Virus record (IMG/VR): IMGVR_UViG_3300049459_000325
Coordinates: 1 to 22,549 of that record
Length of the DNA: 22,549 bases
From: a virus
Direction: 5' to 3' (one strand)
The position numbers and the translations under genes are program-made. The notes under the pieces are model-generated. The model saw only the letters and a program-made list of their open reading frames with translations. It ran no database searches and was not told the DNA's origin. This document shows positions 11,688 through 21,842 of the stretch, piece by piece. Numbering within the stretch: the stretch's first letter is position 1; every line of letters begins with the position of its first letter.

Positions 11688-12008
11688 TCAATCCCCTGTG
11701 TAGTTTGTCCCGCCCGCCCCCAGGCGGTTGTCTTTATGGTTTTGGCTCTGTAACCAGTCCATCTGGTTTGGCCTTTTCAGAGCCAAAATTTCACGCTGAG
11801 CGTGCTGCAATTTGAAACTCAATTGGGTCACCAACTCGTCGGAAGAAAGCACCAACTTGCTGCCCCTAACAACCCAACCTGATCCGTTGCAATCAGTGCA
11901 AACCAGCTCATAAAACAGCCCTTTCACTACCGCTCTCCCCTCGCAGATCGAGCAGGACTCCAGCTCGATCCGTTCCCGCTTAAAGCCAGGCATCGGTCTT
12001 TTCTGCAT
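11688..12008 (-). CDS. Small zinc-finger phage protein, 106 aa
   Basis: Two CxxC pairs, Cys19/Cys22 and Cys37/Cys40, the second in CTDCNGSGW, form a DnaJ-like zinc ribbon. After it comes a probable helix (SDELVTQLSFKLQHAQREILALKR). The ATG at 12008 has GAGG upstream and overlaps the end of the recombinase gene by 29 bp. It lies directly upstream of Q, in the place of the lambda nin region. No specific function is recognised. Confidence 0.7.
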   Translation of the reverse strand: MQKRPMPGFKRERIELESCSICEGRAVVKGLFYELVCTDCNGSGWVVRGSKLVLSSDELVTQLSFKLQHAQREILALKRPNQMDWLQSQNHKDNRLGAGGTNYTGD

Positions 12009-13308
12009 GTTTTAAAACCTCGCCCTTAACAAATTGCGGAAGTGACTCGCAGGCCACGTTATTCAAGGCGTCTACGAGGTTTTGCGAATCCTCATATCTA
12101 GCGCCTGTCTGCTCATGGATCGCCTTGAAGCCACGCTCATCTAACCAGTTGTGCCACTTCACCAGCGCCAGCCGGCGCTGCTCCTTGGCCTGGGTGTTGA
12201 TGTAGGTCGAAGCGATCTTGCCCAAGGAATGGTTCAACAGCATCTCGCCGATATGGCCGTCGACCCCGAGGTCAGTCCAGGCGGTACGGGCCACCTTGCG
12301 CAAGTCGTGACTGGTCCAGGCGCCCTGCCCCAATCGGGTGAACACGGCACTGGCCTGGTTATCGCTCAGCGGCTTGCCTCGGCGGGACGGGAACAGAAAT
12401 GGTCCCTCATACCCGTGGGCGGCCTGCCGGTCGCGGTAGCGACGCAGCAACGCGCAGACCTGGTCGGTCAGTGGCACCCGCAGCTCGGTCTTACTCTTGG
12501 TGTGCTCGGCCGGCAGGTACCACTCACGCTCAGGCAACGCAATGTCGGCCCAGCGCGACTGGCGGGTTTCGCCAATGCGGGTGCCATGGCACAGCATCAT
12601 CAAGGCCAGCATGGCGTCAGCCGGCGCAGTCATGAATCGCTCAGTCAGCTGCTCTACCAACTCGGGCACCTGGACATCGCGCAGACGGGCAGGCTTGGGC
12701 AGGATGCGCGCCGTCGTGAAGTTGATGAACTTGAGCTCGGCCATCGGGTTGGCCGGGATCAGATCGAGCTTACGGGCCTGACGAAAGGCCACCGCGAGCA
12801 AGCGGTACAACTGCTGGACATATGACAGCGACAGCTCTGCCTGAGCCGGCCACATCAGCAGCTGGTCGAGGGTCTGGGCATTGACGTCGCGAATCAGCAG
12901 ATCACCCAGGCGCGGCTTGAGCTGGCAACTGATGGCTGACTTGCCGGCTGATCGACGCTTAGCGGACAGCGCGCGCGAGCGCGCCATGCGATCGTCAAAC
13001 CAGTCCAGCAGTTCGCCGACGGTCACCCAACCCGAAACGCTGGCGGCACCATCGGCCGCGACTCGCAAGCGCACTGCCGGCAACGCTGCAACCACTTGCT
13101 TGGTGCTCAGGTCGGGAAATCCGCCGATGCGGTGCCACTGGCGCTTGTTCAGCAGGTACCAGGAGCCGCGCGCGCGATTCTTCGCATAACGGAAATGCAA
13201 CGCCGGATGACTGGCATCACGCAGGTCACGCACATGCTCAAGCCTGGCGTTGCGCTGAATCTCGGCGTCTGACAGTTTCACGGTCAGGGTCTTGATCAGG
13301 GTGCTCAA
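11980..13308 (-). CDS. Second tyrosine recombinase, internal to the phage
   Basis: The 442-aa protein is a complete tyrosine recombinase. The catalytic residues are all visible: Arg244 (HGTRIGE), Lys271/273 (HTKSK), His334 and Arg337 (SHDLRK), His360 (LLNHS) and Tyr369 (ASTYIN). The N-terminal part (1-95) has an Arm-DNA-binding-like look, followed by a core-binding domain (95-190). It starts with TTG at 13308, supported by GGAGG seven bases before it and by the TTGA overlap with the upstream stop. It is not next to an att site but lies in the replication-to-late operon. It may therefore act in resolution of multimers or replication intermediates rather than integration (inference). Confidence 0.9.
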   Translation of the reverse strand: MSTLIKTLTVKLSDAEIQRNARLEHVRDLRDASHPALHFRYAKNRARGSWYLLNKRQWHRIGGFPDLSTKQVVAALPAVRLRVAADGAASVSGWVTVGELLDWFDDRMARSRALSAKRRSAGKSAISCQLKPRLGDLLIRDVNAQTLDQLLMWPAQAELSLSYVQQLYRLLAVAFRQARKLDLIPANPMAELKFINFTTARILPKPARLRDVQVPELVEQLTERFMTAPADAMLALMMLCHGTRIGETRQSRWADIALPEREWYLPAEHTKSKTELRVPLTDQVCALLRRYRDRQAAHGYEGPFLFPSRRGKPLSDNQASAVFTRLGQGAWTSHDLRKVARTAWTDLGVDGHIGEMLLNHSLGKIASTYINTQAKEQRRLALVKWHNWLDERGFKAIHEQTGARYEDSQNLVDALNNVACESLPQFVKGEVLKHAEKTDAWL

Positions 13309-15823: not shown

Positions 15824-16099
15824 CTATTCCCGCGATACTTGCTTCAACAGCTCGACCGGGGATGAACCCAGGCGTGTCGTGGTTAAAGCGGCTGATTTAC
15901 GAGCCGCTTGGGGGCGGGAGCAAAGCTCGCGAGCCGTGATTTGCCCAGCTGTTAGCTCTTCTGCCTTGAAGGCCTTTTCGGCACTCATCAGGTGAATGCC
16001 AGACACCCAGTACGAAACCGCAGCCTGAGATACGCCGAGAGCCAAAGCTGTTTTGGTCTGCCCGCCGAAGAAGTCGACGAGCCTTTCGATGGGAGTCAT
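15824..16099 (-). CDS. Cro-like regulator
   Basis: The 91-aa DNA-binding protein has a helix-turn-helix at about 10-33 (FFGGQTKTALALGVSQAAVSYWVSG), as in Cro/YdaS-type proteins. It is transcribed away from cI out of the three-site operator, the position of cro. The ATG at 16099 has AAGGA seven bases upstream. It would switch the phage to lytic growth by repressing cI expression. The C-terminal half (ITARELCSRPQAARKSAAL) is not distinctive. Confidence 0.8.
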   Translation of the reverse strand: MTPIERLVDFFGGQTKTALALGVSQAAVSYWVSGIHLMSAEKAFKAEELTAGQITARELCSRPQAARKSAALTTTRLGSSPVELLKQVSRE

Positions 16100-16113: not shown

Positions 16114-16174
16114 ATAAGCATGCTTATATCGTATTTAGAAGGACACTTATTTGCAAGCCAATAAGGAAACTTAT
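16114..16174. promoter_or_regulatory. Right operator with three 14-bp repressor sites
   Basis: Three sites follow the pattern ATAAG-N4-CTTAT: 16114-16127 (ATAAGCATGCTTAT, perfect palindrome), 16137-16150 (AGAAGGACACTTAT, one mismatch) and 16161-16174 (ATAAGGAAACTTAT). Their starts are 23 and 24 bp apart, close to the lambda OR spacing. The sites fill the cI-cro gap. The first is identical to a site in the left operator. Confidence 0.85.
16128..16156 (-). promoter_or_regulatory. Candidate PR promoter for cro and replication genes
   Basis: On the minus strand TTGCAA (16156-16151), a 17-bp spacer and TACGAT (16133-16128) form a plausible promoter. The middle operator site lies in the spacer, so repressor binding would block it. 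The -10 matches only four of six consensus bases. Confidence 0.5.
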
Positions 16175-16186: not shown

Positions 16187-16843
16187 ATGAGCACACTCGC
16201 CGAACGCATTAAATCCGCACGAAGTCACGCCAAGCTGACGCAAAAGGCTCTAGCCCAAAAGGCTGGAGTGGAGCAGCCAGTGATTTCACAGTTGGAGACT
16301 GGAAAGAATCTTCAAAGCGCACATCTGCCGAAGATCGCGCATGCATGCGGCGTGAGCGCTATCTGGCTGTCTGAAAATATTGGTCCAATGATCAGTGCCG
16401 CGAAGGTCGACTCAAACGTTGGTGAAGCTCGTCAGCCGGTTGAGTCTTTCCGGTATCCGGTAATCAGCTGGGTTGCCGCCGGCGCTTGGGCCGAAGCAGT
16501 TGAACCCTTCCCTCCTGGATACTCCGATCGGTATGAGCTGTCGGACTACGACTCAAAAGGTCCAGCATTCTGGCTCGAGGTAAAAGGTGACTCGATGACG
16601 TCTCCAGTCGGAACGAGTATCACAGAGGGGACACTGATCTTGGTCGACACAGAAGCTGATGCTCAATCAGGAAAACTGGTGGTAGCGAAGCTGGCGGACA
16701 GCGACCAGGCAACCTTTAAAAAGCTCGTCGATGATGGCGGTCGACGGTTCTTGAAGCCGCTAAACCCTGCGTACCCAATTGAAATGTGTGCAGAGAACTG
16801 CAGGATTGTCGGCGTCGTAGTCAGGGCGCTGCAAAAGCTGTAG
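16187..16843 (+). CDS. CI-like prophage repressor with S24 self-cleavage domain
   Basis: The 218-aa lysogeny repressor has an N-terminal HTH_3 domain (about 5-60: AERIKSARSHAKLTQKALAQKAGVEQPVISQLETGK). Its LexA/CI-type peptidase domain has cleavage site Ala98-Gly99 (WVAAGAW), Ser136 (KGDSM) and Lys178/179 (ATFKKL). The C-terminus (FLKPLNPAYPIEMCAENCRIVG) is very like lambda CI. RecA-stimulated self-cleavage on DNA damage is therefore expected. The start MSTLAERIK is chosen; the frame is open to 16151 but that part is operator. Only a weak ribosome site is present. Confidence 0.92.
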   Translation: MSTLAERIKSARSHAKLTQKALAQKAGVEQPVISQLETGKNLQSAHLPKIAHACGVSAIWLSENIGPMISAAKVDSNVGEARQPVESFRYPVISWVAAGAWAEAVEPFPPGYSDRYELSDYDSKGPAFWLEVKGDSMTSPVGTSITEGTLILVDTEADAQSGKLVVAKLADSDQATFKKLVDDGGRRFLKPLNPAYPIEMCAENCRIVGVVVRALQKL

Positions 16844-16870
16844 ATATTGTCCAAAAAGCACGCACCTCAA

Positions 16871-16896
16871 AGCCCACCGCCGAGTGGGTTTTTTTG
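16871..16896 (+). terminator. Terminator after cI
   Basis: AGCCCAC pairs with GTGGGTT around a 6-base loop and runs into a T-tract. It closes the cI transcript before the DUF1654 promoter. Confidence 0.8.
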
Positions 16897-16912: not shown

Positions 16913-16928
16913 GAGTACAAATGTACTC
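16913..16928. promoter_or_regulatory. Inverted repeat GAGTACAAATGTACTC
   Basis: A perfect 6-bp inverted repeat around AAAT sits just upstream of the -35 of the DUF1654 promoter. It is not a CI site. Its place fits an operator or activator site for another regulator. Confidence 0.4.
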
Positions 16929-16936
16929 CGCACATC

Positions 16937-16977
16937 TTGCCAAATTCGCTTCATATCAATACTGTACATTCATACAG
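16937..16977 (+). promoter_or_regulatory. Promoter with LexA (SOS) box for the DUF1654 gene
   Basis: TTGCCA (16937-16942), a 17-bp spacer and TACTGT (16960-16965) form the promoter. CTGTACATTCATACAG at 16962-16977 fits the LexA consensus CTGT-N8-ACAG exactly and overlaps the -10, so LexA should repress it and DNA damage should switch it on. Confidence 0.75.
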
Positions 16978-16996
16978 TTACGGTAAGGAAAACCGC

Positions 16997-17248
16997 ATGC
17001 TCTCCTCCTTGATTCCTACGACAAAACATCGCACTTCCTACGAATTAACCGGGCGGCGCTTACAAGCGATCATCGCAGCACCTGGCGTTCAAAAGGTTCA
17101 GGCGGTCACGGTGTTCAGGCTCGAGCACGAAACCGTTGAGGATTGGCAGCGTTTAATCGATGAGATCAGCGAGACGGCCGGCGTGATGGTCGAATCCTTA
17201 GAGGGAGGCGCCGTCAGAATAGGCTGGAGACAGTACTGCGAAGCATGA
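16997..17248 (+). CDS. DUF1654 protein under SOS control
   Basis: The 83-aa protein carries the DUF1654 pattern (SYELTGRRLQAIIAAPGVQKVQAVTVFRLEHETVEDWQRLIDEI, about residues 14-58), a family found mainly in Pseudomonas and its phages. The ATG at 16997 has AAGGA nine bases upstream. It is a single-gene unit between cI and PL with its own LexA-box promoter and terminator. No function is established for the family. An SOS-induced antirepressor or induction helper, in the manner of phage 186 Tum, is an inference from regulation and position. Confidence 0.8.
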   Translation: MLSSLIPTTKHRTSYELTGRRLQAIIAAPGVQKVQAVTVFRLEHETVEDWQRLIDEISETAGVMVESLEGGAVRIGWRQYCEA

Positions 17249-17252
17249 AATT

Positions 17253-17277
17253 AGCCCGCCACTGAGCGGGCTTTTTA
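17253..17277 (+). terminator. Terminator after DUF1654 gene
   Basis: AGCCCGC pairs with GCGGGCT over 7 bp with a 6-base loop, followed by TTTTA. It lies 4 bases after the stop codon. Confidence 0.85.
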
Positions 17278-17295: not shown

Positions 17296-17334
17296 ATAAG
17301 GTTGCTTATTGACGATTAAAATAAGCATGCTTAT
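17296..17334. promoter_or_regulatory. Left operator with two repressor sites
   Basis: ATAAGGTTGCTTAT (17296-17309) and ATAAGCATGCTTAT (17321-17334) follow the same ATAAG-N4-CTTAT rule as the right operator and start 25 bp apart. The second is identical to the cro-proximal right site. They overlap the -35 and -10 of PL. Confidence 0.85.
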
Positions 17335-17337
17335 ATT
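17309..17337 (+). promoter_or_regulatory. PL promoter of the plus-strand early operon
   Basis: TTGACG (17309-17314), a 17-bp spacer and TATATT (17332-17337) make a strong sigma-70 promoter. It is covered by two repressor sites, so it should be silent in the lysogen and drive the LuxR-type gene and genes beyond it on induction. Confidence 0.8.
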
Positions 17338-17646: not shown

Positions 17647-18030
17647 ATGGAAACAGAGATCGTAAATGGCACATGGAAGGGTCACCTCGGACGTGGCCTG
17701 GCACCACGAGAACTTCAGTTCCTTTTATGGGTAGCCCTAGGACTGACCGCGAAGGAAATCGCTCGGGAAGTCGGGATTTCGCCGGCTGCCGTGGCGAAAC
17801 GCCTCAGCAACGCAATGTTCAAGCTAGGCGTCACCCGGCGCGCCGCACTGGTGGCCGAAGCAATACGCCGCCAAATCATTTCGCCGATGTGCGTCGTGCT
17901 GGTCGCACTCATCGCTATGCACGCCTTGCCCGATGGCGACTCAATGCGGCGTGATCGTCGAGTCCCTGAGCGACGTATCGCCCAAGTCCGGACGGCAAAG
18001 CGCGCCGAAGCATACGACCACCACGCATAG
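17647..18030 (+). CDS. LuxR-type HTH regulator with a C-terminal hydrophobic segment
   Basis: The 127-aa protein has a GerE/LuxR helix-turn-helix at about 18-73 (LAPRELQFLLWVALGLTAKEIAREVGISPAAVAKRLSNAMFKLGVTRRAALVAEAI) but no receiver or ligand domain. Residues 79-93 (SPMCVVLVALIAMHA) could span the membrane, followed by a basic tail rich in Arg. The ATG at 17647 has GGGAG eight bases upstream; the frame extends to 17620. It is the first gene of the PL operon, where lambda has N. It probably controls phage or host genes (inference). Confidence 0.75.
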   Translation: METEIVNGTWKGHLGRGLAPRELQFLLWVALGLTAKEIAREVGISPAAVAKRLSNAMFKLGVTRRAALVAEAIRRQIISPMCVVLVALIAMHALPDGDSMRRDRRVPERRIAQVRTAKRAEAYDHHA

Positions 18031-19320: not shown

Positions 19321-19566
19321 CAGATAGCGGGGTACGGTCTCGACAATACCCCATGTCCATATAAGCGGAGAAACACGCCTATTATTTCAAATCTCGAAAT
19401 CCACCTGCAGATGCTGCGCCCAGCCGAGGTGTACAGGGCCCAGGGCTTCACGGAGGATTACCTGACCAGCAACGGCGCCGACGGCAAGCCATTTACCAAA
19501 ACCCGCGGGAACAGCGTTATCCCTTCCCCCGATGGCAGCGCTAGAAAAAGCGAATGCTCCCTGTGA
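19321..19566 (+). pseudogene. Remnant of a phage cytosine-5 DNA methyltransferase C-terminus
   Basis: In the plus frame ending at TGA 19566 the translation contains MLRPAEVYRAQGFTEDYL, then GKPFTKTRGNSV. This matches the C-terminal target-recognition/motif IX-X end of Dcm-type enzymes, where family members read like 'MLTPRELFRAQGFPEDYI ... TKTAQVRMCGNSV'. About five residues are missing between TKT and GNSV, no catalytic motifs (PC, ENV) remain, and no start exists. The normal upstream part is gone and the cargo genes lie on both sides. Confidence 0.6.
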
Positions 19567-20792: not shown

Positions 20793-21842
20793 ATGCGACC
20801 CCGCAAAGCCGAGACACGCAATTTGCCGCCACGGATGTACCAATGGACAAGGAAACGAAAAAGCGGAAAGGATTGGATTGCGTATTACTATCTGGATCTC
20901 GCCGGCAAGGCTATTCCTCTGGGCAAGGATCTGGATCAAGCCAGAATCAAATGGGCCGAACTCGAAGCCAAGGAGAAACCGCTCGACCTACGCACCATGA
21001 AGGGCATCTTCGACCGATACATCCGCGACGTCGTCCCGAAGAAAGCGGCGCGCACACAAAAGGACAACCTGGCGGAGATCAAGCAACTACGCCCTATGTT
21101 CGACAGTGCCCCGATTGATTCGATCACACCAGCAACGATTGCCGGATACCGGGATGCAAGAACAGCAAAGGTACGGGCAAACCGCGAAATTGCGACCCTC
21201 TCTCATATCTTCAATACAGCTCGGGAATGGGGCCTGACCACCAAGGAAAACCCATGCCAGGGCGTTCGCAAGAACAAGGAGAAGCCGCGGGACTATTACG
21301 CAAATGACGTGGTTTGGGGTGCGGTCTACAAAAAGGCAGCACAAGAGCTGAAAGACGCGATGGACTTGGCCTATCTGACCGGGCAGCGACCGGCAGATGT
21401 CCTGGTGATGCGAAAAGATGACGTTGAGGGGGAATACTTGATGGTGCAGCAGAACAAAACCCACAAAAAGCTTCGCATCCAGATCAACGCCGGCGGGACG
21501 GCAAACAGCCTCGGGCAGCTGATCACGAAGATAACGGAGCGCAATGCCCGGCACCTGTCGAGCTACCTGATCGTCAGTCGGTATGGTAAGCGGATGACTG
21601 CAACGATGCTGAGAAAGCGCTGGGACGTCGCCAGGGAGGCAGCGCGATTGGAAGCCATCGAAGCTGGCGACACGCTTCTGGCGGGCAGAATTGGAGAGTT
21701 TCAGTTCCGCGACATCCGGCCAAAAGCCGCCTCGGAAATAACTGACGTCGGTGAGGCGAGTCTGCTCCTTGGACACACCAAAGGCGACATCACCGAGCGG
21801 GTATACCGCCGAGTGGGGGCCATTGCCAGGCCGTCAAAATAA
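20793..21842 (+). CDS. int: Phage integrase, tyrosine recombinase
   Basis: The 349-aa enzyme has an N-terminal arm-binding part (1-62), a core-binding SAM-like part (65-160) and a catalytic domain. Catalytic residues are Arg199 (LTGQRPADV), Arg309 (in FRDIRPKAAS), His328 (LLGHTKG) and Tyr338 (ERVYRR). The usual first His of the HxxR box is replaced by Arg306, common in this subgroup. It is about 130 bp from the tRNA-Ser fragment, so it is the enzyme that integrated the prophage. Confidence 0.93.
   Translation: MRPRKAETRNLPPRMYQWTRKRKSGKDWIAYYYLDLAGKAIPLGKDLDQARIKWAELEAKEKPLDLRTMKGIFDRYIRDVVPKKAARTQKDNLAEIKQLRPMFDSAPIDSITPATIAGYRDARTAKVRANREIATLSHIFNTAREWGLTTKENPCQGVRKNKEKPRDYYANDVVWGAVYKKAAQELKDAMDLAYLTGQRPADVLVMRKDDVEGEYLMVQQNKTHKKLRIQINAGGTANSLGQLITKITERNARHLSSYLIVSRYGKRMTATMLRKRWDVAREAARLEAIEAGDTLLAGRIGEFQFRDIRPKAASEITDVGEASLLLGHTKGDITERVYRRVGAIARPSK

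Follow-up and report, generated by a model that had tools for sequence, protein, structure and literature searches.

A small DUF1654 gene in a virus record with the organization of a temperate Pseudomonas phage reads as a terminator-insulated unit sited between two predicted CI operators, and its control by LexA is strongly supported by a LexA box kept across the DUF1654 family. We think it probable, with real room for doubt, that this stand-alone unit is repressed by LexA, that its product is made on DNA damage, and that the product helps to lift CI repression alongside self-cleavage of CI. The window (the whole stretch of DNA that was analysed) is a virus record of 22.5 kb, and its immunity region contains the following features:

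15824..16099, minus strand: Cro/YdaS-like regulator (P22_Cro and YdaS_toxin matches), leading the leftward operon
16115..16126: predicted left CI/Cro operator TAAGCATGCTTA on the cro/cI side, changing together with the CI N-domain among relatives
16187..16843, plus strand: CI-type repressor of 218 aa (HTH and Peptidase_S24 by Pfam scan)
16869..16895, plus strand: terminator-like hairpin 3' of cI (-11.5 kcal/mol, z -2.5, U run)
16915..16926: palindrome GTACAAATGTAC, resembling the P. putida LexA2 motif; putative LexA2 site
16937..16965, plus strand: putative promoter TTGCCA-17-TACTGT, read from the sequence; relatives have the same layout
16962..16977, plus strand: predicted LexA box CTGTACATTCATACAG over the -10, from the CTGT-N8-ACAG match and conservation
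16997..17248, plus strand: DUF1654 gene, 83 aa (PF07867, E=2.6e-19; phrog_2707), with an ATG kept among relatives
17253..17276, plus strand: terminator 3' of the DUF1654 gene (7-bp stem at 17253-17272; -13.5 kcal/mol, z -3.7)
17297..17333: predicted right operators TAAGGTTGCTTA (17297-17308) and TAAGCATGCTTA (17322-17333), covering the right promoter
17309..17337: right promoter TTGACG-17-TATATT, overlain by operator sequences
17650..18030, plus strand: LuxR/GerE HTH gene (phrog_3282, 'sigma factor'), leading the right operon

The hairpin at 16869-16895 is absent from the pattern-scan terminator list, and the promoter TTGCCA-17-TACTGT, which is our own reading, is absent from the consensus-scan list. 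Two further ORFs of the window were characterized by reading alone: that at 11980-13308 (minus strand), in the lytic operon, looks like a tyrosine recombinase, with an integrase encoded separately at 20793-21842, and a short one at 19411-19566 resembles the final part of a DNA cytosine methyltransferase and is possibly a gene remnant.

The window protein clearly belongs to DUF1654 (69.2 bits against a PF07867 cut-off of 27), and both PF07867 and phrog_2707 are labelled as of unknown function, with an SOS link stated in neither model. The first-pass annotation had placed the gene at 16937-17248; the family and the end at 17248 stand, but the start has to be moved, because 16937 is the first in-frame TTG and forms part of the -35 hexamer (TTGCCA, 16937-16942), which is separated by a 17-bp spacer from the -10 (TACTGT, 16960-16965). 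The gene starts instead at ATG 16997, after AAGGA at 16985-16989, and spans 83 codons; the DUF1654 genes of relatives begin at the same ATG. The perfect CTGT-N8-ACAG box that had been reported over the -10 is indeed present (CTGTACATTCATACAG, 16962-16977) and is the sole perfect match in the window. A single box of this kind is only suggestive, since 0.17 are expected by chance in the window and 16 of 100 shuffles contained one.

That the box is genuine is settled by relatives, which keep it upstream of DUF1654. For this comparison, 150 bp upstream of 158 distinct DUF1654 genes were scanned (from 58 IMG/VR loci, named phages, 80 related-CI loci and Pseudomonas genomes), many of which are related and so do not count as independent cases. 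CTGT-N8-ACAG was found upstream of 137 of them, CTGT-N8-CCAG upstream of 15 and neither upstream of 6, so that 152 of the 158 carry the box when the CCAG variant is counted. It is kept in the F116, YMC and PS-1 phages although DUF1654 protein identity there is about 25-37%, its distance to the start codon is about 31-36 bases in named phages and in the majority of the other loci, and it was present at all 38 framed genus-wide DUF1654 loci. Of the perfect boxes in 1.3 Mb of these loci, 76 are sited ahead of DUF1654 and 10 occur at other places; this count was used instead of an all-ORF control (348/17,095), which includes DUF1654 itself and nested frames. The box is thus placed to block the promoter and kept in orthologues, as expected of an SOS regulon member. 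A universal box was ruled out by one clade lacking it (L149, L087, L150, L222 and L089) and by a locus with a decayed half-site (L017); the clade has a TTTGACA-containing region upstream of DUF1654 in its place. In phage YMC11/07/P54, a single LexA box sits between two divergently oriented DUF1654 genes (L064, 3620-4267).

Besides the family-wide conservation of the box, the first-pass annotation had missed a host DUF1654 copy and the upstream GTAC-N4-GTAC site. The latter (GTACAAATGTAC) lies at -82, and KT2440 has GTACAAATGTGC (GTAC-N4-GTGC) at the corresponding -83. We take GTAC-N4-GTGC to be the P. putida LexA2 motif; dual LexA control of the window gene is a lead only, with LexA2 possibly also at work on it. 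Among the tested loci, GTACAAATGTAC or GTGC-type sites about 74-83 bases before DUF1654 were seen only in the window group (L002-L007), L011 and KT2440 (L135, at about 2958).

Placement of the gene between two operators, also proposed earlier, agrees with TAAGCATGCTTA on the left and TAAGGTTGCTTA/TAAGCATGCTTA on the right. None of the CI operator sequences occurs in the DUF1654 promoter, which makes the proposed independence from CI a fair reading; judged by sequence alone, the gene shares with antirepressors the feature of being under LexA and independent of the phage repressor. In addition, the claim that the repressor has a RecA-responsive domain agrees with its S24 domain and retained cleavage residues: in 45 related CI proteins A98-G99 and S136 are invariant, as are the lysines, bar one K133R. 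Since these residues of RecA-stimulated self-cleavage (Ala-Gly/Ser/Lys) are kept, CI should itself sense SOS, and a cleavable CI together with a LexA-controlled gene is consistent with the suggested two SOS inputs.

At least three immunity types occur among the related phages. From one type to another, CI N-domains are 15-25% identical, whereas C-domains are mostly 92-99% and DUF1654 proteins mostly 92-100% identical; the operators flanking the DUF1654 gene left and right change along with the CI N-domain. Such swaps are seen in the pairs L021/L031, L032/L033, L014/L016 and L039/L046. Replacement in concert with the CI DNA-binding domain supports the predicted sites as CI operators, and the near-constancy of DUF1654 across swaps makes it unlikely to need the operator sequence or that domain. 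Any CI target may therefore be the S24 (C-terminal) domain; otherwise a host factor such as RecA may be the target. In a rank-correlation test over CI-selected loci, DUF1654 varied with the N-domain, the C-domain and Cro alike, with no C-domain specificity. Because that set is biased by its selection, the swap pairs are preferred, and the co-variation of DUF1654 with CI domains is suggestive only; a GerE-gene version of the test covered 5 loci only and was dropped.

In the textbook view, an extra SOS gene is unnecessary for a cleavable CI. Against this speaks the near-constant pairing of DUF1654 with CI: by our own count, among the 54 related CI loci whose downstream sequence extends for 5 kb or more, 50 have DUF1654 on the same strand. 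The four related CI loci without DUF1654 (L189, L208, L210 and L218) rule out that CI always needs it, so the gene is usual rather than obligatory. The DUF1654-carrying F116, R656, PS-1 and P54 phages all have S24-type repressors, and DUF1654 also goes with S24 repressors of other kinds. Between cI and DUF1654 (L002-L059, L143-L222) lies a hotspot for variable cargo genes, 0.15 to 7.9 kb in length.

The nearest known thing to the window gene is PP_3901 of P. putida KT2440. In a study of P. putida mt-2, the promoter of the prophage gene PP3901 served as a DNA-damage reporter (PMC4595014). That paper reports, second-hand from Abella 2007, that PP3901 belongs to both LexA regulons (LexA1/LexA2), is inducible by mitomycin C and has to be present for DNA damage to induce other prophage genes (PMC4595014). 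The PP3901 qPCR primer printed there (PMC4595014) matches one IMG/VR record, IMGVR_UViG_637000222_000004, and the ORF that the published primers point to encodes an 86-aa DUF1654 protein (PF07867, E=1.7e-32). Upstream of its GTG start are CTGTCTATGCATACAG at 35 bases and GTACAAATGTGC at 83 bases. The IMG number 637000222 is presumably KT2440, with which the gene content agrees. PP_3901 is 33% identical to the window DUF1654 protein, and the GerE gene downstream of it is 65% identical to the window's gene at 17650..18030.

The two regions share the order repressor, DUF1654, terminator, operator-like palindrome and GerE gene, with an S24 repressor upstream and a LexA box at the same distance before DUF1654. 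They differ in the second site (GTAC-N4-GTGC before PP_3901, GTAC-N4-GTAC in the window) and in the repressor, PP_3896 of KT2440 having Leu-Gly where the window CI has Ala-Gly. Moreover, the KT2440 P1 prophage, unlike the window, has RexAB-type defence genes just 3' of PP_3896, in the PP_3896-PP_3901 stretch (PMC12894663), and HicAB-like genes just 5' of PP_3901. A poorly resolved tree places PP_3901 closer to host DUF1654 copies than to the window type. In the repressors of KT2440, PS-1, R656 and L137 (L136, L062, L063 and L137), the Ala in front of the conserved Gly seems to be replaced by Leu or Met, a call made by eye on a divergent alignment that leaves the cleavability of such repressors uncertain; if they are poorly cleaved, this could explain why PP_3901 is required. 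By analogy with this syntenic relative, a role of DUF1654 in prophage induction is supported.

Two AlphaFold models of DUF1654 (pLDDT 84 and 86) have a helix-strand-helix-strand-strand arrangement. Structure searches with both gave no confident match (Z at most 6.4, not informative); the weak likeness to folds that bind nucleic acids (R3H, Smr, IF3-C, S8) and to SepF at Z <=6.4 may reflect a common arrangement. The Pfam scan of the window protein returned DUF1654 alone above the cut-off, with no DinI-family match, and a PDB sequence search found no match. A DinI-like or Tum-like protein finds no support in the Pfam and PDB sequence searches, nor in a confident fold match. The earlier suggestion of a Tum-like role survives in part: an induction role fits the requirement reported for PP_3901, but the Pfam scan showed no relation to DinI or, by extension, to that half of Tum which is DinI-like.

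In the mechanism that we favour, LexA (LexA1, possibly LexA2) would hold the DUF1654 gene off in the lysogen, independently of CI. DNA damage would remove LexA, the 83-aa protein would be made, and it would help to relieve CI repression in parallel with RecA-stimulated CI self-cleavage. Since exchange of the CI DNA-binding domain and operators leaves DUF1654 constant, the S24 domain at the C-terminus of CI would be its likeliest target; action there might block dimerization or operator binding, or favour cleavage. Because CI here looks cleavable, the DUF1654 gene may be dispensable for induction.

The host copy has to be weighed against this mechanism. DUF1654 is present in 173 of 199 sampled Pseudomonas genomes, and an endonuclease I (EndA) gene lies directly 3' of it, or overlaps it, in 25 of 39 inspected loci (L131:13566-14533; L091-L129); this host copy upstream of endA likewise has a LexA box. 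The five prophage copies among the 39 loci have no endA nearby. In a full-text literature search DUF1654 turned up in a single paper, which makes no SOS connection, and in many Pseudomonas the LexA-boxed host copy, often beside endA, seems to form an SOS unit not described before. Since the host copy occurs in many Pseudomonas, the ancestral role of DUF1654 may not concern CI; its function in the host may predate that in phages, which is the main reason to keep host targets in play. DUF1654 might act on the host SOS machinery (the RecA filament or LexA), for instance by stabilizing filaments so that CI is cleaved faster, the prophage copy being a co-opted host SOS gene. We regard this as unlikely, though it agrees with the wide occurrence of a LexA-controlled host copy, with the indifference of DUF1654 to complete exchange of the CI N-domain and operators, and with the several prophage genes said to be affected by PP_3901. 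The reported requirement for PP_3901 would be odd if a host copy, should KT2440 carry one, were interchangeable with it, and neither the Pfam scan, with no DinI match, nor the predicted fold, with no confident relative, points to such an activity.

Alternatively, DUF1654 might be an effector of host physiology (DNA metabolism, a nuclease partner, division or lysis) that readies the cell in SOS without a direct role on CI. The host copy directly 5' of, or overlapping, the endonuclease I gene and the weak fold likenesses noted above speak for it, but the five prophage copies lack endA nearby, phage copies hold their position between cI and the right operator, and PP_3901 is reported as needed for prophage gene induction; we give this reading only a small chance. 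A chance origin of the boxed palindrome, with the gene outside SOS control, as the occasional box in shuffled windows would allow, is extremely improbable given that the box's position and sequence are conserved across the DUF1654 family.

If help in relieving CI repression is the correct reading, the uncharacterized DUF1654 family gains a testable role, that of LexA-regulated induction factors whose partner repressors seem able to sense RecA on their own, and the immunity-swap pairs can serve as a natural experiment on the target of DUF1654. A seemingly undescribed SOS unit is added by the host copy with its LexA box, often beside endA. More speculatively, and with considerable doubt, DUF1654 could be a Pseudomonas-wide class of SOS-made effectors acting on the C-terminal domains of S24 repressors (or on RecA) whatever the operator specificity, so that a prophage whose CI can cleave itself would have a second input, gated by LexA; the host copy could then cross-induce prophages.

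Among known systems, the LexA-controlled antirepressors Tum of phage 186, AntC of N15 and GfoA/GfhA of the Gifsy prophages lift prophage repression after DNA damage (PMC3121763). DUF1654 is likewise a small, LexA-controlled phage protein, for which the lifting of repression is proposed by analogy, but a sequence relation to these proteins was not detected. In the Gifsy prophages the repressors are uncleaved and the antirepressor genes map outside the immunity region; the DUF1654 gene, by contrast, is located within that region, and the CI here looks cleavable, keeping Ala-Gly, Ser and Lys; an uncleaved repressor, shown for Gifsy, is not strictly a defining feature. The GIL01 protein gp7 is also a small phage protein adjusting an SOS-cleaved repressor, but its effect runs opposite to the one proposed for DUF1654, since gp7 binds the LexA of the host, makes repression stronger and inhibits cleavage of LexA (PMC4551915). 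Extending LexA control and an induction role to the whole DUF1654 family appears to be new within the papers searched. By analogy, DUF1654 would work most like the LexA-controlled antirepressors Tum, AntC and GfoA and is a candidate for an antirepressor in the strict sense, one that binds its cognate repressor and keeps it off the operators, although no sequence match to DinI was found and the CI here looks cleavable.
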